Source: a virus. Taken from it: 64,000 bases of DNA. The stretch covers positions 62,001-126,000 of IMG/VR virus record IMGVR_UViG_3300025133_000037, one strand, 5' to 3'. Below the pieces are notes generated by a model. That model ran no database searches. It worked only from the letters and a program-made list of their open reading frames with translations, and was not told where the DNA came from. Every line of letters starts with the position of its first letter. Positions within the stretch are counted from its first letter, which is position 1. The translations under genes and the position numbers were made by a program. Positions 30,263 through 52,721 of the stretch are shown one piece after another.

Positions 30263-30547
30263 TTACTCTATATTTTTAAAGTGTTTCTTTATCTTGTCAC
30301 TCACTTTAAACTTTACGGACTTGTATGACTTTAAGATCATTTCTTCTTGAGTTTTCGGGTTTCTTACAGGACGTGGAGAGTGAGTGTATAAATAGTATTT
30401 TCCAAAGCCTACCAAAGAAACCTCCCCCTCCTCCTCTAAAGATTCAATTATCGAGTCTATTAAGGCATCAATAGCCTGCAAAGCCTCTTTCTGAGACAAA
30501 AGAGTTTTTGAAGCAACCTTTTTCGCTAAATCTTTTTTATTTACCAT
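30263..30547 (-). CDS. HU/IHF-family DNA-binding protein
   Basis: A 94-residue HU-like protein. It has the helical N-terminus (NKKDLAKKVASKTLLSQKEALQAIDALID), the core EGEVSLVGFGKYYLY, and the DNA-contacting arm with RPVRNPKTQEE, then a basic C-terminus. HU proteins bend and compact DNA; phage versions act in replication, packaging or gene control. It lies ten bases upstream of the fibre gene. Confidence 0.93.
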   Translation of the reverse strand: MVNKKDLAKKVASKTLLSQKEALQAIDALIDSIIESLEEEGEVSLVGFGKYYLYTHSPRPVRNPKTQEEMILKSYKSVKFKVSDKIKKHFKNIE

Positions 30548-30609
30548 CTTTATTCATCCCTACAAGTGCGTGCGCGCGTGACGATACAATCTTAAATATT
30601 AATAGTAGC

Positions 30610-30831
30610 CTAAATGATATCATCATCATCAAATTTATCAGCATATAATTGCGATTCTTTATAGTCTGATTCTAACTCATCTTGCCTTTCTAAATAATAT
30701 CTATATACCGTAGAGAGATCCCCATCGTCCATGCCGCTGGAGTCAATACCATAATTCTCATATATACGATTAACCTTTTTTTTAAGCCTCTCTATTTTTT
30801 CGGTATCGCTTATCCTCTCCTTGTTTGACAC
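30610..30831 (-). CDS. Small acidic hypothetical protein
   Basis: A 73-residue acidic protein (MSNKERISDT start, DDDDII end). The GTG at 30831 is preferred because GGAG lies six bases upstream; an in-frame TTG four codons earlier has no site. Helical and charged throughout. Function unknown. Confidence 0.65.
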   Translation of the reverse strand: MSNKERISDTEKIERLKKKVNRIYENYGIDSSGMDDGDLSTVYRYYLERQDELESDYKESQLYADKFDDDDII

Positions 30832-30852
30832 GTTGATCTCCAAACATCAAGC

Positions 30853-31227
30853 CTAAACTTGATCTGCCTTCTTAACTATCTCGCGGCATACATCGACCAT
30901 GCTCTCTACTGTCATTTTTAACTTCAAAGCATTAACGCAATACGCACACCATACAACATTCCCCTCAACATATCCTAACTCCGGATCAATACAATCCAAT
31001 GACATCTTAAACGGGTCATGTGTTCTTTCTTTATTTTCTTTAACAATATTTAATTGAATATCAGAGTAAAAGCATCTTCCGCTTTGCTCCTCAAATAGAG
31101 TTACGATAAAATCTTTTGTTATATCAAAAGGAATACCTTTTTTAGACGCTCTACTCCTAGCATTTGAAACAGCTCTTCCAAACATTATACTAGGATATTC
31201 TAAACATTTTTCTCTCCACGTATACAA
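30853..31227 (-). CDS. HNH-endonuclease-like protein with altered active site
   Basis: A 124-residue protein that matches the phage HNH-like pattern: SRASKKGIPFDIT, then GRCFYSDIQL, SLDCIDPELGYVEGNVVW and CVNALKLKM. In typical members the core reads (L)DRIDSSKGYV..NV and uses nearby His residues; here the canonical first His is not evident, so activity is uncertain. It starts at TTG behind GAGGAG, next to the KH gene stop. It could be a small nicking or homing enzyme or a non-catalytic DNA-binding derivative. Confidence 0.72.
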   Translation of the reverse strand: MYTWREKCLEYPSIMFGRAVSNARSRASKKGIPFDITKDFIVTLFEEQSGRCFYSDIQLNIVKENKERTHDPFKMSLDCIDPELGYVEGNVVWCAYCVNALKLKMTVESMVDVCREIVKKADQV

Positions 31228-31228
31228 C

Positions 31229-31498
31229 TTAGCTCTCCTCTGCCTCTTCTACAGGCTTGTTAAAAACATTAACCATAAGTCTAAGCCCAGCCTTTGCGCC
31301 AGAAGCTTTCGCAACTGTTCGTATCGCATTAGCAATTCGGCCCTGCTTCCCTATAACCTTTCCAACATCATCTTTGCCTACTCTGATTTCAAACAGGAGG
31401 CCCTTCTCTGGATCATTGGATTCGGTCACAATCACTGCTGATTCATCATCGACTATACTTGTCACCATAACGGTGAGCAATTCTTTTACACTACTCAT
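31229..31498 (-). CDS. KH-domain RNA-binding protein (KhpA/YlqC-like)
   Basis: An 89-residue single KH domain. The GxxG loop is seen in GKVIGKQGRIANAIRTV, with the preceding beta strand LLFEIRVGKDDV and following AKASGAKAGLRLMVNV. KhpA-type proteins bind RNA and affect translation and cell division in bacteria. A phage-borne copy could modulate host or viral RNA. GAGGAG precedes the ATG; it lies between Hsp20-like and HNH-like genes. Confidence 0.9.
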   Translation of the reverse strand: MSSVKELLTVMVTSIVDDESAVIVTESNDPEKGLLFEIRVGKDDVGKVIGKQGRIANAIRTVAKASGAKAGLRLMVNVFNKPVEEAEES

Positions 31499-31499
31499 T

Positions 31500-32003
31500 T
31501 CAAATCTCCTCTATATTAATTTTGGTCAACTCAACTTCAGATTTTCTCGGAATAACAACCTCAAGCAATCCATCTTTCATAGAAGCTTTGGCTAAAGTTA
31601 GGTTAAATAATGGATTTATAAAATACTTTGCCTTAAAATTTCTTCTGGCAATACCCCTAACTATCATGCCGTTCTGTACGCCAATTACCGGGACTTTAGC
31701 GGGGTACTCACCCTCTGGTGTCTCGATACTATTGTCGCTTTCCACAGGCGAAATCTTATTGCCCAAGCCCTCTATATAAAGCTCATTGTTTTTAGTGTTA
31801 ACTGATACGTCTGATGGAGAATATCCCGCTAAGGCAAACGCCATATGGAACCCTCCTTCATCACACCACTGGTCACACCTTGGAAACTTTCCAGCAGAAG
31901 TGGCCTTTTTATGCGTAGCTACATCTCTAAAGAATTCATCATCAGCCCATAATAAGTCTAAGACCCTGCCAGGGATAGACACTCTACTCATCGTATCTTT
32001 CAT
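31500..32003 (-). CDS. Small heat-shock protein (Hsp20/alpha-crystallin-like)
   Basis: About 167 residues. An alpha-crystallin-type domain is seen in the GFHMAFALAGYSPSDVSV strand pattern, NELYIEGLG, and the C-terminal FNLTLAKASMKDGLLEVVIP, which is the family signature (A-x-x-x-D-G-x-L). The middle insert (about residues 75-110) is unusual. The ATG at 32003 has GGAG upstream, and translation overlaps the end of the membrane-protein gene. Many cyanophages carry Hsp20; it would help protect virion or host proteins from aggregation. Confidence 0.8.
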   Translation of the reverse strand: MKDTMSRVSIPGRVLDLLWADDEFFRDVATHKKATSAGKFPRCDQWCDEGGFHMAFALAGYSPSDVSVNTKNNELYIEGLGNKISPVESDNSIETPEGEYPAKVPVIGVQNGMIVRGIARRNFKAKYFINPLFNLTLAKASMKDGLLEVVIPRKSEVELTKINIEEI

Positions 32004-32316
32004 TGCTTTCATCTCCATTTTCAAAAGCTGTATCAAAATATATTCCAACCGAATCAACTGCCCCAACAATGCTGTGAGTGGACCAACTAAAAAGGCTGGT
32101 TATTGTCGCTGCCCATAAAGGATTTATATCATAAAAACCAGAGGCAATAAGTCCAACCCAAAAGCCAGAGCACATTGTGCAGTTAATTAGTTCTCCTAAA
32201 TAAGCTGATCTATTTTCTATAAACTTCCTAATAGGCTCTAAGAGGGCGCTTGCTACCAGGATAATAGTAAGGCCAGAAGAACCTAATGAAAATATTAAAA
32301 ACTCAACTATACTCAC
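31984..32316 (-). CDS. DUF1360-like small membrane protein
   Basis: A 110-residue protein with three likely membrane segments. The LINCTMCSGFWVGLI motif (Cys-x-x-Cys) is characteristic of DUF1360 proteins found in phages and Bacillus. GTG at 32316 has GGAG six bases before it. It is the first gene behind a good sigma-70-like promoter. Function of the family is unknown; spore-coat and phage members exist. Confidence 0.75.
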   Translation of the reverse strand: MSIVEFLIFSLGSSGLTIILVASALLEPIRKFIENRSAYLGELINCTMCSGFWVGLIASGFYDINPLWAATITSLFSWSTHSIVGAVDSVGIYFDTAFENGDESNERYDE

Positions 32317-32464: not shown

Positions 32465-33163
32465 TTATTTGCGGTTTGCCTCTTTATACTTAGAGATAGC
32501 AACGGGCCATAAGCCCTCGGCTATTTCAAGGCAAGCTTCCGCGACTCTTTGTATCTCCAGTTGAGCACCAGCATGTGTTCTTAGCTCAATAAACTTTAAT
32601 AAATTGTTCAAATTAACTGTTCCGTAATATTCTGTATACATATTTTGAGGCAATACACCCCTTGCCTGCTCACGACACACCCCTGCTTCAATCATTCTAT
32701 TGAAGAGATCGAGAGACATTTGATGATGTAGACCAACCATTTCATCACAATCACTGCCACAAGAAAGAACTGGGTTAATTAACTCTTCAGCGTTGCTTGC
32801 CTGTCTGTTAGCTTCGTGTTGTGTTCTGAACTCTGGTGTCTCATAAAACTTAATATCTACATCTGTATACCGCCTTGATATTTCATTATAACTCCAAGTG
32901 CGATGCCTGTGATGTTGGCTTCTAACATACAATGGAACTACAAAGCAAAGGGTAATAACATTATGTTCAAAAGTGCTAGTATGACGATGTTTCGCTAAAT
33001 ATGAAATAAGCTTTTCATCTTGCTTATCTAGCTCATTCTTCCGTCGTCCAAAGCTAACACGTGCGCTATTAACTATAGTCAAGTCTGTCCCCATATGGTC
33101 CACGTACTCAACTCGGCCTATGCCATCTGAATACAGATAAATAGCGTTTTTAACCTGCCCCAT
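32465..33163 (-). CDS. thyX: Flavin-dependent thymidylate synthase
   Basis: A 232-residue ThyX, making dTMP from dUMP with methylene-tetrahydrofolate and FAD/NADPH. The ThyX motif RHRTWSYNEISRRY lies near residues 85-98, and the N-terminal HTSTFEH motif and C-terminal LRTHAGAQLEIQ substrate-binding motif are intact. The ATG at 33163 is chosen for its GGGGAG site; it overlaps the end of the M16 peptidase gene by 14 bases. ThyX is common in large phages and supplies dTTP for viral DNA synthesis. Confidence 0.96.
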   Translation of the reverse strand: MGQVKNAIYLYSDGIGRVEYVDHMGTDLTIVNSARVSFGRRKNELDKQDEKLISYLAKHRHTSTFEHNVITLCFVVPLYVRSQHHRHRTWSYNEISRRYTDVDIKFYETPEFRTQHEANRQASNAEELINPVLSCGSDCDEMVGLHHQMSLDLFNRMIEAGVCREQARGVLPQNMYTEYYGTVNLNNLLKFIELRTHAGAQLEIQRVAEACLEIAEGLWPVAISKYKEANRK

Positions 33164-34379
33164 CAGACTCCCCTCTGCATACAAGGAGCAACTGCCTATC
33201 TTGATCAAAGACTATATTCGCAGCCTCCGTTACATCACTGGTCGTTACCGCATCAATGTTGTTCATGTAATCCTCTATAGTCGGAATGTTCTGCAGCCTT
33301 CTTTTGATGGCCCAATATGCAAGGCTATAACTATCTTCTATTGCAGAATAGAATGAAGATCGAATCTTATTCTTGGCCCTCTGGACCTCTTCCTCTGTTG
33401 GCATTTCTAGTTTAATCACATTCAGCTGCTCGTCCACTACTTCTACTGCCTCTGGTAAGTTAGCCTCTCTTGTGGAGAACTCAACCAAACTAACCCCTCC
33501 ATGCTGCCAATCTGTATTCCCGCTCGATATACCATATACCAAGCCTCGCTTCTCTCTAACCTCTGCGAACAAACGACAGTCCATGCCCCTGCCCAAGATT
33601 GTCATTAAAACCTGCACAGCACCATCTATCTCTGATGCAACATTTACAGATGGCATACCCATCCATACATATGAATGCTCCAAGCCACCCTTAGTTATCT
33701 CCATATATCTTCCTCCAGAATAATCTGAATTGTATACAGGATAATCTGAATCAAAAAACTCATAATTACTTGTAATCTTTCCGGTTGCCGGACCAAAATA
33801 CTTATTAAGCAAAGCCTTAGAATCCTTCTTGCTTAAGTTGCTACATATCGAAACAACGGCATTCTTTCGATTACAAAACTCTTTATGGAATCTTTTTAAC
33901 TCATCTGTTGTAAATTTAGATATACTGTCTTGTGTTCCGAGAACAGGAAGCGCCAAGTAGTTATTAAAAAAGGTTTCAGAAAAAGCTCTCCATATATAAT
34001 GAGAAGGGTCGTCAGTGGAGGACAGTTCCTCCTCCTTGACGACCTCTATCTCCCGCATTATTTCTTCTTCTGGGAAGATGGGATTAAACACCATATCAGA
34101 AAGAATCTCTATACATGGCTCTAAATTTTCATATGGAACGGATACATAATATGCTACTGATTCGTGAGAAGTAAAGGCATTTGAGTGCCCTCCTAAAAAC
34201 GCAATCTCCCTCTGTATTTGAAGGCTGTTTCTTTTGTTCGTACCCTTGAACAAAGAATGTTCAAGCATATGGGCAATTCCAGGGTTATACTCTCCAGGCT
34301 CTTCAACTCTGGAGCCAGCATCAAAAGAGACTATTATTGTCGCTAATCTGCTATGTGTTTTGGATATTTCATGAATCAT
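33150..34379 (-). CDS. M16-family zinc metallopeptidase
   Basis: A 409-residue protein with the inverted zinc motif HMLEH at residues 37-41 and a downstream EIEVVKEE that supplies the distal zinc-binding Glu. A central G-GLVYG-type segment (EKRGLVYGISSGN) matches the C-terminal half of the family. Size fits the single-unit bacterial M16B type, related to mitochondrial processing peptidase. The ATG at 34379 is used because GGAAGG precedes it and the longer reading would start inside a terminator. M16 enzymes cut short peptides or presequences; target in a phage is unknown. Confidence 0.93.
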   Translation of the reverse strand: MIHEISKTHSRLATIIVSFDAGSRVEEPGEYNPGIAHMLEHSLFKGTNKRNSLQIQREIAFLGGHSNAFTSHESVAYYVSVPYENLEPCIEILSDMVFNPIFPEEEIMREIEVVKEEELSSTDDPSHYIWRAFSETFFNNYLALPVLGTQDSISKFTTDELKRFHKEFCNRKNAVVSICSNLSKKDSKALLNKYFGPATGKITSNYEFFDSDYPVYNSDYSGGRYMEITKGGLEHSYVWMGMPSVNVASEIDGAVQVLMTILGRGMDCRLFAEVREKRGLVYGISSGNTDWQHGGVSLVEFSTREANLPEAVEVVDEQLNVIKLEMPTEEEVQRAKNKIRSSFYSAIEDSYSLAYWAIKRRLQNIPTIEDYMNNIDAVTTSDVTEAANIVFDQDRQLLLVCRGESDGAG

Positions 34380-34401: not shown

Positions 34402-34432
34402 AAAGGGTGGGAGCATTTTGCTCCCACCCTTT
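34402..34432 (-). terminator. Strong rho-independent terminator
   Basis: AAAGGGTGGGAGC and GCTCCCACCCTTT form a 13-bp stem with a 5-base loop, followed on the minus strand by TTTTTTATTT. It lies four bases after the VWA gene stop and ends the MoxR/VWA operon. Confidence 0.9.
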
Positions 34433-34435
34433 ATG

Positions 34436-35578
34436 CTACCGAGTCTTTTGTTCAATAACTACCTTTTTTCCATAAGGGAACTCTACGTCCTTATCTTGCT
34501 CGCAGACTGCCCATAAAACCCTAGTCTTTGGCTTACTTGGGAATGGAGCATAACCATCTGTGAAGATGGCTAATCCATCATATTTTAATTCATCTGCCAA
34601 CTCAATTACCGGACTAAAACAAGTTCCTCCTCGACCCACTATGTCAATTTTGCTTGACTTTTTGCTGAAAGGCTTTGGGTCGTCATAGATTTGGGTATCA
34701 AACTGAATGAAATCGACTTCCACATGGTCAATCATTCCATTCAACTCCGCAGCAAAATATTCTAACTGTGAATTAGACACTGAACCAGAAGTATCAAAGG
34801 CAACTAACAACCTGCTTGTATAGTTTCTCTTTGTGCCGGGAGAGACAAAGCCATACCTTCTATTGGGCCTCATACGAGTATTCTTTCGTCCCATTAGAAT
34901 GAGCTTATTAATGAACCACCTAACTTCTTTCTTCCAGTTTACAACCGGCTTATTGGCAGCTATAATCTGCGCTGCAAGGTTTCCATTAATATTCCCCCAA
35001 CCTTTCTTCTCCTGCTCTTTAATTGCCTTTTCTGCAATATTACGAATCTTCTCTTCTACAATATCATCATCAAATTCATCCCACATAGAGTGGTCGTCAA
35101 CAGTGTCGCCCTTTCCTTCAATGAGTTGGTCAAAGTCCTTACCTTGACCCTCGCATTCTTTCTTTAGCTTCTCATAATACCACTCAGAAGACTCATTGTT
35201 ACTAAGTCCAAACTGATGAGGATAAAGTGCTCCCTCTGGAAGCCCCTCAATATGACAATTAATAGCGCAATCTGCCGCAATATTATATCCTCGCGGATTA
35301 TAAGCAAAATGCTTTGCGCGAGTCAAATGATGCAATAGTATATGCAGAGCCTCATGCTTTAGAACGCTTCTCAATTCAGTCGATGAAAGCTTTTGAATAA
35401 AGTCTGGATTATAATACAGAGCCAAATCCACTCGCCTAATAACTCCGACCGCAAGAGTAGGCATCTTTGTGGTTTCCTTTTTATTCAGATGAAGGAAAAC
35501 CTCTCCGTATAAAGGCTGAAAAGTTACGAGTTTAGAAATCGCTGACTCAAGCCTGTTTTTTATTTGTGCGTTTGCCAT
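34436..35578 (-). CDS. VWA-domain protein with N-terminal HExxH metallopeptidase-like domain (DUF2201 type)
   Basis: A 380-residue protein. The N-terminal half holds HEALH at residues 75-79, the zincin motif of the DUF2201 family, followed by the AADCAINCHI helix typical of the family. The C-terminal half is a VWA domain with MIDAS residues FDTSGSVS near 260, GRGGTCF, and FTDGY. GGAGG precedes the ATG. The upstream gene encodes a MoxR-type AAA+ ATPase; such pairs act as metal-insertion or protein-remodelling chaperones. A single terminator closes the two-gene unit. Confidence 0.9.
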   Translation of the reverse strand: MANAQIKNRLESAISKLVTFQPLYGEVFLHLNKKETTKMPTLAVGVIRRVDLALYYNPDFIQKLSSTELRSVLKHEALHILLHHLTRAKHFAYNPRGYNIAADCAINCHIEGLPEGALYPHQFGLSNNESSEWYYEKLKKECEGQGKDFDQLIEGKGDTVDDHSMWDEFDDDIVEEKIRNIAEKAIKEQEKKGWGNINGNLAAQIIAANKPVVNWKKEVRWFINKLILMGRKNTRMRPNRRYGFVSPGTKRNYTSRLLVAFDTSGSVSNSQLEYFAAELNGMIDHVEVDFIQFDTQIYDDPKPFSKKSSKIDIVGRGGTCFSPVIELADELKYDGLAIFTDGYAPFPSKPKTRVLWAVCEQDKDVEFPYGKKVVIEQKTR

Positions 35579-35648: not shown

Positions 35649-36725
35649 TTAAGAAGTAAGATAAATCTGCTTCAAATGCTCTCGGAAATCCTCATCATTC
35701 TGCCAGTCCATAACAATCTTCTTACTCTTTTGTCCACCGAGAAGTCCAACCCATGCTTGGGATGCAACATCATTTGGAAGCATCATAAAGAAGTCTCTCA
35801 AATTCTTACGCTGCGGCTCCTTAGTCTTAGTCAAAGAGCGGTCATTAACCTCTGCTACCACTGACCGCGAAAGGGCTGCGATAACCTCAATGTCATTACA
35901 TGCAGCCTCGACCTTATCCTTGACCTTCCCAAAGTTATCGAGAATATCAGATGGACGAAGTTGAGAAAACTCGTTTGTAAGAAACTTCTGAAACATAACA
36001 GCGATCTCTCGTCCAACCCAACCTTTTGTTACCTGGGTAAGCATACCATCGTCTGTTCGTTTATCTAGCCCCATTCCCATAAGGGTATCCGAAAAAGCAA
36101 CCCAACTTCTGCGAGAAGGATAAACCCTTCCTGCTTCAAGGTTTCCAACCGGAGGGTCTAGCAGGTTTTGATTCCTGTTAATAAACTCAACAACAGCCTC
36201 GTGGACTCCGCTTTCTCTGGCCCAATCCATCCACTCCAAAGCAGATGGGTCAAAGTCGATATGAAACCACCTATCATGCAGGGCTGGGTCAAGCTCAACT
36301 ACGTCGTAATCATCATCAGAGTTTACAGCAGAAACAACCCTCCATCCATCAGGAAGCTTTTCCCCGTCCAATCTTCGGTCCAAACAAATCTCAAAGACTG
36401 CCTGAAGAACATCTTTCGATGCACGATTAAGTTCGTCAAAGAACAAGATTCCCTTAGAGTCTTGTGCCCGAGGCCACCATTCCTGCTTCAAAAAGCGGAT
36501 AATGTCTCGTTCAACATCCTTCTCTGGAAGTCCCTTAATATCTCCGACCTCACATTGTGAAAGCCTAACGTCAAAGAACCCATAGGTTTCTCCAGAATCA
36601 GCTTCCAACTCTTCTGCCACCTGCCTTACAACAGACGACTTTCCAACCCCATGCTTTGCATGAAGCATAACAGATTTATCCCAAGGCATAGTCTTGAGAA
36701 TTTCCTTAGTTTGATTAATATTCAC
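35649..36725 (-). CDS. MoxR-type AAA+ ATPase
   Basis: A 358-residue AAA+ ATPase. Walker A is GVGKS at residues 26-30, Walker B is ILFFDELNRA near 95, and the sensor region contains VVSAVNSDDDY followed by ALHDRWF. The C-terminus is helical. It starts at GTG with AGGAG upstream and is preceded by one copy of the 25-bp intergenic motif 58 bases before the start. Together with the downstream VWA/HExxH protein it would form a MoxR-VWA chaperone pair. Confidence 0.92.
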   Translation of the reverse strand: MNINQTKEILKTMPWDKSVMLHAKHGVGKSSVVRQVAEELEADSGETYGFFDVRLSQCEVGDIKGLPEKDVERDIIRFLKQEWWPRAQDSKGILFFDELNRASKDVLQAVFEICLDRRLDGEKLPDGWRVVSAVNSDDDYDVVELDPALHDRWFHIDFDPSALEWMDWARESGVHEAVVEFINRNQNLLDPPVGNLEAGRVYPSRRSWVAFSDTLMGMGLDKRTDDGMLTQVTKGWVGREIAVMFQKFLTNEFSQLRPSDILDNFGKVKDKVEAACNDIEVIAALSRSVVAEVNDRSLTKTKEPQRKNLRDFFMMLPNDVASQAWVGLLGGQKSKKIVMDWQNDEDFREHLKQIYLTS

Positions 36726-37174: not shown

Positions 37175-38284
37175 CTATTTTCTGGTTCCAAAAGCATGTG
37201 ACTCCTCCAAAGAAGAGGCAGTTAGTCTCATGAATAACGCATTATCTTTTAACTCATCAATATTATTGGCATTAAGGTATGTCATAGCCGACCTCAATCC
37301 TCCGCAAAATTCGTCTATTATATAGTAAGCCTTGCCCTTCAACGGGATATATGTAGACACCCCTTCGGCACAAGTTCCCGGTCTTAATCCGCCCCTCTTA
37401 TCGTCCTGCACTTCCTTTGAAGCCATGCCTCGGTAAGCTTTCATGGACTCTCCATTTATACTAACAACCTCTCCGGGAGACTCTACTGTTCCTGCAAATA
37501 TTCTTCCCGCCATTATAGCATCGGCACCTGCCGCTAGACTTTTAACTAAATCTGCTGGATACCTAATCCCTCCATCAGCAATAATGGCAGTATCATTATA
37601 CAGTTTTATATCTTTTCTCTTCACAGCATAAGCATCTGCTACTGATGCTAATGTTGGAACGCCAACTCCGGTCATAATCCTTGTCTTACAAATAGACCCG
37701 CCGCCTATCCCAACCCTTACTGCATCTGCTCCAGATTCAGATAAAAATGCAAAGCCAGAGCCAGTAGCTACATTGCCTGCTATTACATGCAGGTCGCCAT
37801 TGGAAATATCCTTAACCCACTTAATCATTTCTCTCATATAATTAGAGTGTCCATTGGCAACATCAATTGCAACAGATGTAAGGTGCAAGCCATATTCTTT
37901 ATGCAACTTAAAAAACCTATCTCTTTCATCATCACCAACTCCAATGGCGGCGACTACTGGCGCAGGCCCAGCCCCCGTTGGTGCATTTTGATTATACTCA
38001 ATAATGCTTTTGATATGACCCATCTGTTCCTCTATGGGCATAAACCTATGTACGATTCCCATTGCCCCATGAGATCCAATGGAAATCGCCATTGTAGAAT
38101 CAGTTACAGTATCCATAGGAGAGGACACAATCGGAGTTTGTATATATAAGTTTGAGCCCAACGAAGTTTGAGTACAAGGCTTTAGCCTTGATCTAACCTC
38201 CGTATATCTTGGCACAAGTAAGACATCATCAAATGATGGAGGCTTCCCGGATTCAATAAGCTCTGACGCAGTATAGTATTTCAC
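37175..38284 (-). CDS. IMP dehydrogenase-like enzyme without CBS domains
   Basis: A 369-residue TIM-barrel enzyme of the IMPDH/GMP reductase family. The catalytic loop [17 protein letters not shown] with its Cys lies near residue 200. Further motifs are [43 protein letters not shown] and GGLRSAMTY. The AEG and [10 protein letters not shown] ends are closer to bacterial GuaB than to GMP reductase. The CBS pair found in most IMPDH is missing. IMPDH makes XMP, the first step from IMP to GMP. GTG start with GGGAGG. It overlaps the peptidase gene upstream by four bases. Confidence 0.88.
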
Positions 38285-38904
38285 TTATGCCTCCCGTAAT
38301 AAGCCTCAAATTCAACAGCAAAAGCCTCACCATTTGAGCTATAATGATTTGCAACACAGACTCTATCCCACCAGTAATGAGCTAATTCATGTGATAACGA
38401 ATTATCATTTTGACTGCGACCAAAATTTGATAAGATTATTGCAGAATCAGCATAATCATTTGGGGTTGTATCATAAAAGGCATACAAAAGACTTGGCCTT
38501 AGATTATTGGCGCGAAAAAAGGGCGCAAACCTTTCTTGTTTTAACATTTCATTCGGACTAATGATAAAGATATTTAAGTTATAATTAGTTCTACAGTCCG
38601 AAGTCGGAATTCTCTTCTCTCTCAAGAAGCTTGTCATAACCGACCATACATTTACCATTGTATTTTGCAGATACTCTACGCTATACGCGCCAATAAGCTC
38701 TGAATTAGGGCTTGAGCCATTTGATTGATAGGAAATTGAATATGTCATTCTCTTTCCGTCCAACTCAAGGACTCCTGCATTATATTCTACAGTCCTTATA
38801 TCACTTATTAGGTCTGGCTTTAATGCTTCGGCAAAGCTTACCGAAGATAAAAGCAACAAACAAGCTGCTATACTAGCGGTTATCTTCCCTGTCTTTGTAT
38901 TCAT
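38281..38904 (-). CDS. Secreted HExxH zinc-peptidase-like protein
   Basis: A 207-residue protein. The N-terminal 26 residues form a signal peptide (KTGKITASIAACLLLLSSVSFAEA), so it should be exported. Near residue 170 lies HELAHYWW, the zincin HExxH motif, and a downstream EAFAVEFEAYY could supply the third ligand. No known family was recognised. A phage-coded exported peptidase could act on the envelope or on extracellular proteins; this is inference. Confidence 0.75.
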   Translation of the reverse strand: MNTKTGKITASIAACLLLLSSVSFAEALKPDLISDIRTVEYNAGVLELDGKRMTYSISYQSNGSSPNSELIGAYSVEYLQNTMVNVWSVMTSFLREKRIPTSDCRTNYNLNIFIISPNEMLKQERFAPFFRANNLRPSLLYAFYDTTPNDYADSAIILSNFGRSQNDNSLSHELAHYWWDRVCVANHYSSNGEAFAVEFEAYYGRHK

Positions 38905-41590: not shown

Positions 41591-42607
41591 TTAAATCTCC
41601 TTGGGAGAGTAAGAGAACTTTATAGACTCCAGAAGAGGAGCCTTCTCTCTTACCTTGCTATTGATAAAATCAATCATTTCTTTCAAAGATGAAAAAGATT
41701 CTAGGCTATTATTAAAATAGATTTTGAATTGGCCTAGTTTATCAATAATATCACACTTGCTAATTACAAGATGCGTTGTTCCAGTTATATTTATAGCTCT
41801 AATTAAAAGATTTAAATTAAGCCAATTAACCTTTCTTCTACGACCAGTTGTAACTCCAAACTCTTCCCCTAAGTCTGCAAGCCTTCTGAGGGTCGGATTG
41901 CTCAATAACTCTGGCGGAAACCTTGGATCTTCACCACTCTTTGTATCATAAATCTTTGCGGCTCCCCATACTTTCTCTATCTTTTGAGGAGGGAAGCCAA
42001 TGCTGCAAGCTCCATAGGGAAGCGTAATACTTGATGTTACATACGGATAAAGGCCATGATCAATATCTAACCAAACGCCTTGCGCTCCTTCACACAAAAT
42101 ATTCCCCTCTAACTTACCGTCCCAAATGTAATTATCATCCAAAACTTCCGATGCCAACACCCCAACTCTCGCTGCTTTATCAGCATAACACGGTGCTATT
42201 CCACGACCTGTTGTACCCAGCCTTTTCGCCAAATGCTTTTTATCAAAAGCAATCTGCTTCTCTGTTACGATATGACAATTTGGAGCAACCTTAACCAGCG
42301 AGGTATCGAATCCGTTTTCAGCTAAGTAGTCCAATTCTTTATAAAAAGATTCTGGATGCAAAATACATCCAGGACCAATAAGGGATTTGACTCCATAAAA
42401 AACTCCCGAGGGAATAAGGTGCGTCTTGTGCTTATTGTCATTTACATATACTGTATGTCCGGCGTTATTGCCACCTGCCCATCGCGCCACCATATCATAG
42501 TATGACTCGCCATTAGAGCATACTGTAGATGCCAGTTGGCTTGTAATCTTACCCTTTGCTTCATCGCCCCAAGCCAAGCCCACTACAACGTCTGCTTTAT
42601 CAATCAT
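41591..42607 (-). CDS. Adenylosuccinate synthetase-like enzyme, short archaeal-type
   Basis: A 338-residue protein of the PurA family. The P-loop reads GLAWGDEAKGK near residues 10-20, keeping the catalytic Asp of PurA. Other motifs are GGNNAGHT, GTTGRGIAPCYADK, ILCEGAQGVWLDIDHG..PYVTSS and TTGRRRKVNWL. Length is near 340 rather than about 430, as in the short archaeal forms and in phage PurZ. PurA adds Asp to IMP on the way to AMP. PurZ instead acts on dGMP on the path to 2-aminoadenine DNA and has Ser at the Asp position in classic members, so PurA activity is favoured; a PurZ0-like role is not excluded. Confidence 0.85.
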   Translation of the reverse strand: MIDKADVVVGLAWGDEAKGKITSQLASTVCSNGESYYDMVARWAGGNNAGHTVYVNDNKHKTHLIPSGVFYGVKSLIGPGCILHPESFYKELDYLAENGFDTSLVKVAPNCHIVTEKQIAFDKKHLAKRLGTTGRGIAPCYADKAARVGVLASEVLDDNYIWDGKLEGNILCEGAQGVWLDIDHGLYPYVTSSITLPYGACSIGFPPQKIEKVWGAAKIYDTKSGEDPRFPPELLSNPTLRRLADLGEEFGVTTGRRRKVNWLNLNLLIRAINITGTTHLVISKCDIIDKLGQFKIYFNNSLESFSSLKEMIDFINSKVREKAPLLESIKFSYSPKEI

Positions 42608-43178
42608 CTGCACTCTCTTCCTTGTGGTCTATACAGTTTAGATTTAAACTTATAACCTTTTTAATTTTACTGGGGCGACGAAGAAAAGTAATACCTTCTT
42701 TGTGACCAGATACAGTTGCTGTAAATGTTATCGAATCACCCTGTTTAAAGTCATAAGCCTTAGAGGTTTTGAAGTACCACGACCACCCTCTTTCATCAAC
42801 ACTTATTAGTGCTGGCATAGGATACTCCGCTGTTTCTTTTGGATCTACAACTCTGGCTATAACAAATGGGCCAAAGTCATTCCTTTCACCCTCATCTACA
42901 TCGGGTGGGTCTAGCATAACCTTTTTAACAAGATCGTCAACCCAACGGTTTAATGAATTAATCCACTTTTCCGACAACTTATGTGGTCGCTCTGTAATGA
43001 CAGATACGCTGGACTTTAAGAATTCATTATTCGGGCTTTCTTTAAGCTGAACTGCGAGCATAGGAATGACCATAGGATTAAGCAGGTTAAGCCTTTCCTT
43101 GCCCAAACTCTCAATGCGTTCTGCACTTAGTTTAGTTTTTCTTTTTCTTCTCTTATTGTCTGATAGAATCTTTATCAA
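42600..43178 (-). CDS. Hypothetical OB-fold-like protein
   Basis: A 192-residue protein with a basic N-terminus and a C-terminal beta-rich half (GDSITFTATVSGHKEGITFLRRPSKIKK), which resembles an OB-type fold. It starts at TTG, and its Shine-Dalgarno GGAG is the 3' arm of the preceding terminator hairpin. Its end overlaps the PurA-like start. Nucleic-acid binding is possible but not shown. Confidence 0.65.
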   Translation of the reverse strand: MIKILSDNKRRKRKTKLSAERIESLGKERLNLLNPMVIPMLAVQLKESPNNEFLKSSVSVITERPHKLSEKWINSLNRWVDDLVKKVMLDPPDVDEGERNDFGPFVIARVVDPKETAEYPMPALISVDERGWSWYFKTSKAYDFKQGDSITFTATVSGHKEGITFLRRPSKIKKVISLNLNCIDHKEESADD

Positions 43179-43250: not shown

Positions 43251-44822
43251 TTATTCTTGAGCCTCTTCTCCGGGGCCCATTGCCTGTAATCTTTCACGAT
43301 TTCTTCGGACTCTGCCTCTTCCTCTTCTTCTTCTGGCTTCTGGTCTGAAGATATTTCTTCTTCCAGTCTCCTGTTGTCTAGTCCCAATTATCATTCTCTT
43401 TAAAGCCTTTCTTCTGTCCCGAGTCATGCCTGGAGCCTGACGTATAGTTCTCATTAATATTCTTTGTTCCCTTGGGCTTAAGAAATCATCTCCTCTAGCC
43501 CTATCGTCTCGGGTTCTATTTGCCAAAGGCAAAAGCTCCATAGCTCCGCCCTCTCCGGCCACTTGATAGAATAATTCTCCATCACTCTTTCTCATATAAA
43601 CAGAAGTTCCATCGCCATGATAATAATCATTTAAATTGGCCTCTTCTCCAGTTCCTTCAGTTTCGCCAGTTTCGCCTTCAGCACCGTCATTCTTAGCCCA
43701 ATGATCAACTTGCATAGCTAAGTCTGGGTTACTCTCCTTATCGGAGTTAAAGGCCTCAAGCACTTGGGGCTTTCCTCTGGACATAAGAGTTGTGGCTATA
43801 GCTTCTGTGGCTGGACCTGGATCTCCAAACTTTCCTACCAAAGCATCTCTTGCTGGCAATGTGAGTCTTTCTCCAGAATACTTCAGATAATTAGTCAAAT
43901 CCTCGTCACTTACCTCTGTAGAGTCAGCTTGATCGCCGCCCGCTCCAGCTTCTCCGCCGGACTTATAAGCCTTGTATTGCTCACCCAAAGCAGCCCAGGC
44001 TCTCTTCATATAAGAGTTATTCCACTTACCTGTTCTGTCTAAGTCAAGTTGTCTTGCCTTAACCTCATGGTTATCATTAACCCATTTTCTAAATTCATTT
44101 CCAGAAGCAGCATCTGTTATTAGACCGCCGGATATATCGGCCATTGACTCCGCAGCACTTCCGCCTCCAGAACGTCGTCTTCTCGCCGGAGTTGGGCCTG
44201 GAGCCCGCGACTTGTTCGCCGCAGCTTTAGCGGCCATCACTCTGTTCATTGCATTCCACGCGATTGGAACATACTTAAAATTATCAACCACGCCACTGGA
44301 AAAGCCATCAGCCCAATGAGGTGACTCCTCTATACCTGTGAAGTCCTTAAGCGCAGGGTCAGCCTTAATTACCTGAATAATAGAGCCAGTATCAATAGAG
44401 GTTCCCTTTAACGACATCATTCCTGCTGCAAAGCCTGTAAGCTTACTCATTACTCCCGCATCATGAGAAAATGGGATCGGATTATTATCACTGTAAATGT
44501 CTTTGCTAGTCATAAATTCAATTATTTTTTGATAGCCCAAATCACCATGCAGGGTTCTGGCCTCTTCCTCCTCGATACCAAGCTGCTTGAAAGCCGGGAG
44601 AGCCTGTTGTATTAACTGCTCTAAAGCGGGATTAGGCGCTGCAGGAGTAGCAGGTGTCTCTGGAGTTTCGGGCGTCTCACCCCCACCAGTTAGTGCGTTA
44701 CCAGCCATCATGACCGCGCCGATGGGACTCGCCATCTTAATAATTACATTTGATTGCTCATCATACCCATATGCTTTAAGGGCCTTTGCTAGCTTAGTTA
44801 ATTCTCTTTGTTCTGTATTCAT
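43251..44822 (-). CDS. Modular tag-family protein A
   Basis: A 523-residue protein. It begins with the helical tag (ELTKLAKALKAYGYDEQSNVIIKMA) shared by six proteins of this window. The middle has SGGLITDAASGNEFRKWVND...KWNNSYMKRAWAALG, a module also in the 46964 protein. The C-terminus has DGTSVYMRKSDGELFY, LPLANRTRDD, GDDFLSPREQR and a very basic Arg-rich tail; it is shared with the 44850 protein. Low-complexity Pro/Thr linkers separate modules. A virion or peptidoglycan-related role is inferred. Confidence 0.75.
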   Translation of the reverse strand: MNTEQRELTKLAKALKAYGYDEQSNVIIKMASPIGAVMMAGNALTGGGETPETPETPATPAAPNPALEQLIQQALPAFKQLGIEEEEARTLHGDLGYQKIIEFMTSKDIYSDNNPIPFSHDAGVMSKLTGFAAGMMSLKGTSIDTGSIIQVIKADPALKDFTGIEESPHWADGFSSGVVDNFKYVPIAWNAMNRVMAAKAAANKSRAPGPTPARRRRSGGGSAAESMADISGGLITDAASGNEFRKWVNDNHEVKARQLDLDRTGKWNNSYMKRAWAALGEQYKAYKSGGEAGAGGDQADSTEVSDEDLTNYLKYSGERLTLPARDALVGKFGDPGPATEAIATTLMSRGKPQVLEAFNSDKESNPDLAMQVDHWAKNDGAEGETGETEGTGEEANLNDYYHGDGTSVYMRKSDGELFYQVAGEGGAMELLPLANRTRDDRARGDDFLSPREQRILMRTIRQAPGMTRDRRKALKRMIIGTRQQETGRRNIFRPEARRRRGRGRVRRNRERLQAMGPGEEAQE

Positions 44823-44849
44823 TTTAAATTCCTTTTAATTAAATCACTA

Positions 44850-46961
44850 TTACGGGCCAGGCAACGGAATTGCCTCACCGACCTGACCTGTCAGCGCAGA
44901 TTGTCCTTCTGAAACAGCCTCACGACCCCTTCTTCTTCTAGCCTCTGGAGCAGGAGATCTCCTACCAGTTTCCATCTTTCTAGTTCCAACTATAATCCTT
45001 TTAAACGCTTTTCTTTGTTCGGAAGTTATTTCTCCCGCTCTTTCTGCGCCCCTTATTTGGGACATCATTCTTCTTTGCTCTCTCGGGCTTAAGAAATCAT
45101 CACCCCTAACACTATCATCCTGAGTCCTATTTGCCAAAGGCATTAATTCAATGCCATCAGCAGTGGGCTTACCATAAAATAGCTCGCCATCGCTCTTTCT
45201 CATATAAGTAGATGTTCCGTCTCCGTTATAATAATCATTTAGGTTAACCTCTGGAGTTGCATCTTCTGAATCTTGAGTGTCAGCCAGATAGCTTAGGATC
45301 ATAGCCATATCTTCATTGTTTTCCTTATCTGCATTAAATGCCTCAAGCACCTTAGGCTTATGTCTGCCCATTAAAAAGTCTGCATCAGCAGTTGTGGCCG
45401 GTCCGGAATCCCCAATTCTATCGACTAACTTATCCCTTTCTGTCAAAGTAAGGTTAGTCCCATCATATGTTAAGTAAGTTCTTAAAATCTTATCGCTAAT
45501 ACCTGTAGGTTGAGTCCTATCTTCCTCTCTAGTCAAGCCGCTGAGTCTCTCTAATGCTGCTGCTGGACTAGCAGGCTTTGCAGCCCCGTCAGTAGCGCTT
45601 CTCCAGGCATGTGCTGTTTGTGGTCCCCACAAGCCATCTGCGACTAAAGGCTCTCCATTTGCCCCTTTGTGACCCAACGCATTAAGTCTGTTCTGCAATA
45701 TAGCCCAATCTTGTCTACCTATCGGCGTTGGACCCGGCGTTGGACCCGGCGTTGGACCCGGCGTTGGACCCGGCGTTGGACTCGGCGGAGTACTCGCCTC
45801 TTTCTCAAATTCATAAAGAGCGTTCCATGCTGCAATATATGGCCCGATACTTCCGACAATACCGTTCCATGTCTCGTCCCCTCCAAAGCGGTTATAATCT
45901 GAATCTGCTGAAACAACAGCCTTTACCGCATTTGAATCTATCCGCTTTCCTTTAAGGGCTTGCATACCTGTCGTAAATGTTGATATATTACTAAAGTCTC
46001 CAGCATCGTCGCCTGCAAACCCCCAGTGCCAATCCCAATCAAAGTCTTGATCTTTCCACACTCTTATTATCTCTTCATATAGTGCAGAAAAATCCGGGGG
46101 AGTTGATTCATCCGCGCCTAGAGCAGACAGTACAGAATTTGAATTAACACTATCTCCAAAGAAAGATCCGATTCCTTTAAGGGATTCTACAAAAGCCTGT
46201 GCTTTCTGGCCTAATCTTGCAGCCGCTTCTTGCTGATTGCCACGGGCATCATATACGTTCCACCAACCTATTCCAGCGCCAATTACTGCGCCAATTGCTG
46301 CTCCGGGTAGCCCTCCAATTGCACCGCCTATAGCTGCGCCACCAGTTCCCCATTCAGCCATGTTTTCTCCATAACCTTCTTGGGCTAGTTTTACAATTTC
46401 ATCAGCCTGCCTTACATGGCCTGACATATGCAGGGCTTTTGCCAGCTTTAATAGCTCTTGTTGCTCTGTGTTCATAGCTCTTGTTACTCCAGAAATTCGC
46501 CTTCGCCTAAGTCTTCCGGTCTCTAGAAAACTAAAGTAATCTTTTGACTCAGTTTTATTCCTAATATTAATAGGTTTATTATACTCTCTTCTTTGAATAT
46601 TTGATGGAGGCTTATCTTCTTGAACGTCAATGACAGAGGGGCCTCCAAAGCCTCCTCTATGAGATGCCTCAAAATCTTGCTGTTCATAAGCAGATCTTGG
46701 TCTATAACCCTGTGCTCCTCCGGGACTACCACCAGGAACGTCCGTTAGTCCCAGAGCTTTCTTATATAAGTTTGCAAGCTTTACTCTTTTTGTCAAGCTT
46801 TTGCCCTCATCGCAATCGCTTATTTTATTACTATATGATAATTCCTCTGGATGGGAAGGAGTCCTTACTATATCGGGAGTCCTCTCTTTTAAGACAGGCC
46901 CAGATTCATAATAAGAGATTAAGTCAAGAAGAGACAAATCTTCATCAGCCTCTTCCTTCAT
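44850..46961 (-). CDS. Modular tag-family protein B with peptidoglycan-binding-like domain
   Basis: A 703-residue frame. A 162-residue Ser/Pro-rich N-terminal region precedes an internal copy of the tag (MNTEQQELLKLAKALHMSG, ATG at 46475, itself preceded by GGAG). A Gly-rich hydrophobic segment (AAIGGAIGGLPGAAIGAVIGAG) follows. A Pro-Thr-Gly repeat near residue 400 then leads to LQNRLNALGH...DGLWGPQTAHAW, the PG_binding_1 pattern. The C-terminus is shared with protein A. Either a fusion or two overlapping products from internal initiation is possible. Confidence 0.75.
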   Translation of the reverse strand: MKEEADEDLSLLDLISYYESGPVLKERTPDIVRTPSHPEELSYSNKISDCDEGKSLTKRVKLANLYKKALGLTDVPGGSPGGAQGYRPRSAYEQQDFEASHRGGFGGPSVIDVQEDKPPSNIQRREYNKPINIRNKTESKDYFSFLETGRLRRRRISGVTRAMNTEQQELLKLAKALHMSGHVRQADEIVKLAQEGYGENMAEWGTGGAAIGGAIGGLPGAAIGAVIGAGIGWWNVYDARGNQQEAAARLGQKAQAFVESLKGIGSFFGDSVNSNSVLSALGADESTPPDFSALYEEIIRVWKDQDFDWDWHWGFAGDDAGDFSNISTFTTGMQALKGKRIDSNAVKAVVSADSDYNRFGGDETWNGIVGSIGPYIAAWNALYEFEKEASTPPSPTPGPTPGPTPGPTPGPTPIGRQDWAILQNRLNALGHKGANGEPLVADGLWGPQTAHAWRSATDGAAKPASPAAALERLSGLTREEDRTQPTGISDKILRTYLTYDGTNLTLTERDKLVDRIGDSGPATTADADFLMGRHKPKVLEAFNADKENNEDMAMILSYLADTQDSEDATPEVNLNDYYNGDGTSTYMRKSDGELFYGKPTADGIELMPLANRTQDDSVRGDDFLSPREQRRMMSQIRGAERAGEITSEQRKAFKRIIVGTRKMETGRRSPAPEARRRRGREAVSEGQSALTGQVGEAIPLPGP
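45724..45783 (-). repeat. 12-bp tandem repeat, five units
   Basis: The unit ggcgttggaccc occurs four times exactly and a fifth time with one change. It encodes the Pro-Thr-Pro-Gly linker before the peptidoglycan-binding-like module. Being in-frame triplets (12 bp), unit changes would alter linker length without a frameshift. Confidence 0.95.
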
Positions 46962-51116: not shown

Positions 51117-52721
51117 CTATTCCGCATCAGTTTCGGATGTATACACTATAACTTCAGTTGTTAACAGAGTTCCGCTAGAAGATGCTGCATTTTCCAAAGC
51201 AGACCTAACAACCTTTACCGGATCAATTATCCCATCTTTAATCATATTTTTTGAGAAAGATCCCCTATAAGCATCAAATCCATTAGTCATATTTGTTGAG
51301 CTAGAAATGCTTTCCATATGCAAATGATGTTCAAATCCAGCATTGATTAAAATCTGAATAAACGGCGCTCTTATTGCCTTTGATATTACATCAACTCCAA
51401 CCAACTCTTCCGTTATAAGGGTTGCTTCTGACTTAAACTTCTTTAAGGCTGGTAAGCAATGGAGCAAAGCAGATCCTCCTCCCGGAACAATACCCTCTTC
51501 TATCGCCGCCTTTACAGCGTTTATAGCGTCCTCCACTCTGTCTTTCCGCTCCTTTACCTCTGACTCAGAAACGCCACCAACTTTCAATACAGCAATCGAG
51601 CCAGAGAGCGATGACAATCTTTGCTTTAGAGCGGCAATCTCATAGCCTTCTAAGTTATCTTGCTCAAGCCGTATCTTTATTGAGTTCACCCTACTCTCTA
51701 CGTCACTCGACGTACCTGCGCCATCTATGATAGAAGTAGAGGATCTTGTCACCAAAGCTCTTCTTGTAGTCCCTAAGTCAAGAAGAGTAGCTTCTCTAAG
51801 CGGAGAGCCAGCTTCGTCTGTAAACAATGTAGCTCCACAAACCGCAGATATATCGCCCAGCATATCCGCCCTTATATCTCCAAACCCAGGAGCCCTTACT
51901 GCACAAGAGGCTAACGTGCCTCTTGCTTTGTTTAGAACCAAGGTCTGCAAAGCTTCTGACTCTACAGTTTGTGCGATAATCAACAATGGCCTATTCTGCT
52001 CTGATACTGCCTCTAAAATAGGCATAATCTCATATGTTGAACTTATCCTTCCATTATAAACTAATACAAACGGGTTATCAAACTCAACAGTTAACTTGTC
52101 TAAATTTGTAGCAAAAGTCGGCGTTATATACCCTCTCTCAAAGTTCACCCCTTCCGTATAAGCAACAGAGGTTTCTGACCCAGCCGACTGTTCTACCGAG
52201 ATCATTCCATCATTCCCTATCGCAGAAATGACCTCCCCTATTATTGGGCCTAATTCTAAATCATTGTTTGTAGAAATAATAGCTACATTATTTATTATCT
52301 CTTCACTGTCAACAGGTTTAGAAATTTCTTTCAGCCTATCAGAAACAACCTCTACGGCTTTATCTATTCCTCTTTTTATTAAAACAGGGTTATGTCCTGC
52401 CGCCACCATCTTTGAACCCTCTGTATAAATAGCTTGAGCTAAAACAGTAGCAGTAGTAGTTCCATCCCCAGCTAAAGAATTCGTTGCAGAAGCTACACTC
52501 TTTATAAGAGAAGCCCCCATATTTTGAACCCTATCATCAAGCGTTATGGCCCTCGCTACCGTAACACCATCCTTTGTAACTAAGGGCGGTCCAAAATCTC
52601 TTTCTATAGCGGCATTACGCCCTCTTGGTCCTAAAGTTACCTTTACAGCATCAGCCAGTATATCCAGGCCCTCTTGAAGACCGTTTCTTGCATCCAAACT
52701 AAACTTTACACTTTTTCCCAT
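51117..52721 (-). CDS. groEL: GroEL-type chaperonin (Hsp60)
   Basis: A 534-residue group I chaperonin. N-terminal KVTLGPRGRNAAIE and GDGTTTATVLAQ (ATP-binding and catalytic Asp) are intact. The apical domain keeps RGYITPTFATN, and EGIVPGGGSALL is present in the C-terminal equatorial part. The C-terminal GGM tail of bacterial GroEL is missing; the protein ends TSETDAE. No GroES is visible in the window, so it may use a host or distant co-chaperonin, or work without one as described for some phage chaperonins. Confidence 0.96.
   Translation of the reverse strand: MGKSVKFSLDARNGLQEGLDILADAVKVTLGPRGRNAAIERDFGPPLVTKDGVTVARAITLDDRVQNMGASLIKSVASATNSLAGDGTTTATVLAQAIYTEGSKMVAAGHNPVLIKRGIDKAVEVVSDRLKEISKPVDSEEIINNVAIISTNNDLELGPIIGEVISAIGNDGMISVEQSAGSETSVAYTEGVNFERGYITPTFATNLDKLTVEFDNPFVLVYNGRISSTYEIMPILEAVSEQNRPLLIIAQTVESEALQTLVLNKARGTLASCAVRAPGFGDIRADMLGDISAVCGATLFTDEAGSPLREATLLDLGTTRRALVTRSSTSIIDGAGTSSDVESRVNSIKIRLEQDNLEGYEIAALKQRLSSLSGSIAVLKVGGVSESEVKERKDRVEDAINAVKAAIEEGIVPGGGSALLHCLPALKKFKSEATLITEELVGVDVISKAIRAPFIQILINAGFEHHLHMESISSSTNMTNGFDAYRGSFSKNMIKDGIIDPVKVVRSALENAASSSGTLLTTEVIVYTSETDAE

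Follow-up and report, generated by a model that had tools for sequence, protein, structure and literature searches.

M16 peptidases and MoxR-VWA pairs

Zinc metallopeptidases of the M16 family are best known from mitochondria and bacteria; they typically clear short unfolded peptides, and some, MPP among them, cleave N-terminal presequences off large proteins. An Arg/Tyr pair in the C-domain is required for M16 catalysis. The zinc site has the pattern HXXEHX74-76E, and virions of vaccinia virus cannot mature without its M16-like protease G1L (PMC1420270). In the archaeal virus ATV, tail development is supported by a MoxR/VWA pair (PMC3466262) and, for the jumbo-phage MoxR-vWA with a fused metallopeptidase domain, participation in virion assembly and peptide processing has been proposed, without experiment (PMC7824862). 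The literature searched, which covered few subscription papers and is weak evidence of absence, held no description of phage M16 peptidases.

The phage protein considered here shares with the Bacillus halodurans M16B processing protease 3hdi and with MPP-beta a two-domain chain of ~410 aa, the HXXEHX74-76E pattern and the C-domain Arg/Tyr pair. A Foldseek search with its predicted structure gave 3hdi as the best PDB match (TM-score 0.88 for the whole chain), yet the two are only ~25% identical. The N-terminus of the phage protein is shorter (the first His is residue 37; the median for cellular relatives is 51) and, unlike 3hdi and MPP-beta, it is linked to a MoxR-VWA pair. It resembles gp2 of Bacillus phage G, a 27% identical 'zinc-dependent peptidase', in being an M16 protein of a giant phage, but gp2 adjoins TerL and a sigma factor in a head-gene region and not MoxR-VWA. 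The two genes upstream of M16 are the same as those of the jumbo-phage pair and have the same domain architecture (PMC7824862); the papers describing such pairs mention no M16 partner (PMC7824862, PMC3466262), whereas here M16 is a fixed third gene. Vaccinia G1L, likewise from a virus, has an HXXEH site of the M16 type and a related fold; poxvirus G1-type proteins are very distant from the phage protein (TM-score 0.33–0.47, 10–14% identity) and belong to eukaryotic viruses, so they offer an analogy only.

The phage record and the M16 gene

The window is a stretch of 64,000 nucleotides, bases 62001–126000 of the 131,661-base IMG/VR virus record IMGVR_UViG_3300025133_000037. Besides M16, the record contains genes for tail sheath, portal, TerL, major head protein, a phage-type DNA polymerase, GroEL and Hsp20; close to the major head protein it encodes a head-maturation-protease-like domain (phrog_18299, E 4e-13). 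Contigs bearing relatives of the M16 gene reach 317 and 335 kb. The gene belongs to a genuine tailed phage from a so far uncharacterised large-myophage lineage; the initial annotation had spoken of a phage-like genome, and the host-chromosome origin that it named as a refutation is contradicted by the phage hallmark genes and by synteny.

Table 1. Features of the M16 locus (window coordinates).
Feature	Position	Strand	Basis and remarks
thyX, flavin-dependent thymidylate synthase, downstream of M16	32465..33208	minus	PF02511; ORF overlaps the M16 end
M16B zinc metallopeptidase gene, 409 aa, ATG start	33150..34379	minus	PF00675+PF05193, AlphaFold, catalytic residues 27/27
Intrinsic terminator hairpin, 14-bp stem and U-run	34402..34432	minus	Ends ~20 nt upstream of the M16 start codon
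VWA (DUF2201), N-terminal HEALH putative metallopeptidase domain, DTSGS MIDAS motif	34436..35578	minus	PF13203+PF09967
MoxR-type AAA+ ATPase	35649..36725	minus	PF07728; adjoins VWA and M16 in relatives
Exported HExxH protein, same conserved block, possible extra metallopeptidase	38281..38904	minus	Invariant residues 25/25

A mechanical ORF listing gives M16 a longer version on the minus strand, from GTG 34427 to the stop at 33150. The ATG at 34379, the start chosen in the initial annotation, is the correct one, since the 16 upstream codons overlap the terminator hairpin and are not conserved. It is the single M16 gene of the record, which is possibly incomplete. Pfam searches found PF00675 (107.6 bits, cut-off 22.3, E 7e-31) and PF05193 (98.9 bits, cut-off 23, E 4e-28), which together cover the protein; a PDB sequence search gave 3hdi as the top match (E 4e-40), followed by MPP-beta chains. 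AlphaFold modelling with a 34-sequence alignment yielded a mean pLDDT of 93 and a pTM of 0.89. With both domains along the whole chain, HXXEH with a distal Glu, the Arg/Tyr pair and a fold of two homologous domains, the protein has the features of family M16 (M16B type), and by sequence and predicted fold it is an ordinary M16B member. The nearest NCBIfam models are YfmF and YfmH, M16 proteins associated with EF-P modification (E 1e-23), but its scores (83.8 bits against 285 and 82.5 against 250) lie under the cut-offs, and equivalog membership was rejected. No PHROG family, known prohead proteases included, was matched at E 0.001, and no signal peptide is evident.

The zinc motif HMLEH supplies H37, E40 and H41, and the distal ligand is E117, 75 residues past H41. 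Profile searches of viral contigs yielded M16 relatives of 38–74% identity; H37, E40, H41 and E117 are invariant in all 27 non-redundant phage relatives, as is the C-domain pair R275/Y282. Close pairs have a dN/dS of 0.055–0.08, a sign of strong purifying selection. Together with this, the invariant catalytic residues argue strongly for a protein that is selected and catalytically competent, and the phage M16 is probably active as a zinc peptidase. The earlier reading of an intact HMLEH motif and distal Glu, and of a probably active enzyme, thus holds at the sequence level; the loss of active-site residues in relatives that would have spoken against it was looked for, and every relative keeps them.

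Conservation of the MoxR-VWA-M16 block

The gene order MoxR-VWA/DUF2201-M16 recurs in 27/27 non-redundant relatives; one contig has six small ORFs inserted before M16, and another a gap of ~0.8 kb. The converse also holds: contigs retrieved via VWA alone carry M16 in 32 of 32 cases, within the flank in 31, the remaining one being the contig with six inserted ORFs. M16 is therefore a core gene of the lineage and the fixed third member of a MoxR-VWA-M16 module, which is apparently a new observation. As in the phage MoxR-vWA(metallopeptidase) pairs, an AAA+ ATPase adjoins a VWA protein with a MIDAS motif and an N-terminal HExxH; the HE-x-LH (HExxH...HH) and DTSGS motifs are kept in all relatives. 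A wider block, PurA-DHH-HEAT-like-IMPDH-MoxR-VWA-M16, is largely kept too. M16 was not found beside MoxR-VWA at 18 viral loci outside the clade (phage G included) or in the further phage records examined, and DUF2201 is absent from a small sample of 13 cellular genomes holding M16 relatives.

On the other side, thyX, often a divergent version, follows M16 directly in 16 of the 25 judgeable relatives. The neighbours named in the initial annotation, MoxR/VWA upstream and thyX downstream, are thus right for this genome, but the thyX adjacency is not general, and an M16-thyX operon was rejected.

A conserved terminator between VWA and M16

The hairpin at the VWA-M16 junction has a folding energy of −25.5 kcal/mol (z −6.8). 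Its conservation was assessed with a strict home-made scan of gene 3′ ends and by eye: the scan found a terminator at the VWA 3′ end in 22/27 relatives, and inspection raised this to 26/27, imperfect hairpins being present in four of the five strict-scan misses. The same strict scan returned 8/27 at the MoxR 3′ end and 0–1 in 19–27 at each of the 3′ ends of PurA, DHH, HEAT-like, the 39099 gene, the exported HExxH protein, IMPDH and M16. The hairpin sequence varies among the phages while the hairpin itself persists. A conserved intrinsic terminator at this junction is the second apparently new feature of the locus.

Given so strong a terminator after VWA, M16 cannot be taken as a mere extension of a MoxR-VWA operon; the linkage to that operon noted in the initial annotation is real and general. 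M16 is probably expressed separately from MoxR-VWA or at a lower level. An ordinary promoter would hardly fit between the U-run and the start codon of M16, which often follows only ~15–25 nt later; read-through or a promoter overlapping VWA is thus the likely route of its expression.

Origin of the phage M16 genes

M16 genes are common in bacteria (control genomes), which would suit a recently acquired host gene, or host DNA mis-binned as phage. The best cellular M16 proteins are 28–33% identical (query L015) and scattered over many phyla, and a stricter scan for cellular M16 homologues found none; no cellular homologue was found above ~33% identity. Phylogenetically, the phage M16 proteins form their own, separate clade (SH-aLRT 97 and 100). 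With M16 present in 32/32 contigs, synteny in 27 contigs and the hallmark genes of a phage alongside it, recent cargo or mis-binning is extremely improbable. What the initial annotation called unusual phage cargo is indeed uncommon in phages, but it is a core syntenic gene of a deep lineage of phages; no close cellular donor was found for it, and it is not cargo.

M16 is uncommon rather than unheard of in phages, since in other large phages gp2 of phage G and a separate group of ~385-aa proteins are M16 peptidases as well. The gp2 gene lies beside TerL and is kept in two related contigs (L199, L202); in phage G, gp14 (portal) and gp27 (major capsid) are encoded downstream of it. The ~385-aa group (L203, L205-L214, from other viral contigs) has a shortened N-terminus like the M16 of the window, and in L209 it has an SbcC-like neighbour. 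The three phage groups cluster with a support of 92, which is below the strict mark and involves long branches; their single origin is possible but unproven. The peptidase adds a phage branch to the M16 family.

Some M16 matches labelled as phage were set aside as probable bacterial DNA, namely that in 'Microcystis phage MaAM05' and several from faecal 'phages', on short unannotated scaffolds. The MaAM05 stretch (L008; MW495066.1, 134724-151779) carries smc-scpA-scpB, uvrA and cardiolipin synthase along with an M16 pair; it resembles bacterial chromosome, and the record may be contaminated or mislabelled.

Possible role of the M16 peptidase

The MoxR-VWA partners, the roles reported or proposed for such pairs and vaccinia G1L favour the processing of phage proteins during assembly. 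We tentatively suggest, with somewhat less than even confidence, that this M16B endopeptidase, fixed in the MoxR-VWA-M16 block, trims or clears phage proteins together with MoxR-VWA while virions are assembled. With an M16B-type fold and no evident signal peptide, the protein would be cytoplasmic and would form a two-chain clamshell chamber, as is usual for M16B enzymes. It is probably a homodimer, the simplest form given that the zinc site and the Arg/Tyr pair occur on one chain and that a single M16 gene is present in the possibly incomplete record. The MoxR-VWA chaperone would remodel phage structural proteins, so that short extended segments are exposed or released, and M16 would cut these segments, perhaps N-terminal propeptides, scaffold or tail peptides; the terminator may hold the dose of M16 under the level of MoxR-VWA or separate the two in time.

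The position of M16 beside or near TerL in phage G and its two relatives agrees with such an assembly role. Against it, the block itself (PurA, DHH, IMPDH, MoxR, VWA, M16, ThyX) belongs mostly to nucleotide metabolism rather than to head or tail formation, the terminator makes simple co-expression with MoxR-VWA less likely, and the M16 and MoxR/VWA genes of phage G are far apart, so the partnership is not universal. Moreover, the record encodes a head-maturation-protease-like protein of its own, so classical head maturation does not require M16. That M16 is itself the head maturation protease of the lineage appears very improbable: its universality in the lineage and the MPP-type removal of presequences from large proteins would fit, but the phrog_18299 domain is encoded near the major head protein and the M16 gene stands outside the head cluster.

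The metabolic takeover genes that mostly surround M16, and the clearance of short unfolded peptides typical of the family, could instead point to a host-directed early or middle peptidase, which would degrade host peptides (defence, signal, toxin/antitoxin) or recycle amino acids for phage translation. Host-directed phage proteases are argued to be patchy and variable (PMC7824862), whereas M16 is a constant presence in 32/32 contigs, linked to MoxR-VWA, and we consider this explanation unlikely, though of some weight. The constant linkage would also suit an oligopeptidase that disposes of peptides from the VWA HEALH domain and contributes to proteostasis alongside phage GroEL/Hsp20, both encoded in the same record, all the more as the HExxH...HH motif of VWA is kept in all relatives; the peptidase activity of DUF2201_N is itself putative, however, and the terminator suggests separate transcription of M16, so such housekeeping seems rather doubtful.

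Assembly-linked processing remains the preferred reading. A broader version of it, which we offer as speculation and regard as improbable, is that this lineage, the phage G group and the third group share an ancient M16 family of the phages' own that serves as a virion-assembly processing peptidase, here hard-wired to MoxR-VWA and dosed by the terminator, and a functional counterpart of poxvirus G1. MoxR-VWA pairs are widespread in large phages; with a peptidase locked to the pair in every contig retrieved, the substrate of M16 should reveal the client of the pair.

Other genes of the lineage and of related phages

Annotated proteases of other types occur near the MoxR-VWA pairs of other phages (L163 and L166): Moorella phage MTATph1 encodes an HslV family protease, and Erwinia phage phiEaP8 encodes FtsH and ClpX. 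Possibly, the pairing of MoxR-VWA with peptidases is general.

The exported protein of the block (207 aa, HELAH) has H172, E173, H176, E193 and two Cys invariant in 25/25 relatives and lacks a Pfam or PDB sequence match. Its model (pLDDT 91) has no significant PDB fold match and shows a weak, non-significant resemblance to M1-type zincins; it is a possible new family of exported zincins. The IMPDH gene (window 37175-38284) is conserved in the lineage, but in L012:1552-4915 and L041/L042 it is apparently split by extra coding sequence (ORFs of ~280–550 aa), which suggests an intron or intein. A short adenylosuccinate-synthetase-like gene (window 41591-42613, 340 aa), which may be PurA or PurZ-like, is also conserved in the lineage, and many relatives keep, downstream of M16/thyX, a series of HU-like, HNH-like, KhpA-type KH-domain and Hsp20-like genes (window 30263-32069).

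The record contains two GroEL-like genes, one in the window at 51117-52721 (534 aa) and one of partial length at L159:18672-19964 (430 aa). The phrog_18299 head-maturation-protease-like domain is the N-terminal part of a fused 1113-aa protein (L158:13725-17066). Two adjacent paralogues at window 43251-46961 have a common C-terminal region (STYMRKSDGELFY...DDFLSPREQR), and the longer of them shows weak similarity to tape-measure proteins and endolysins.
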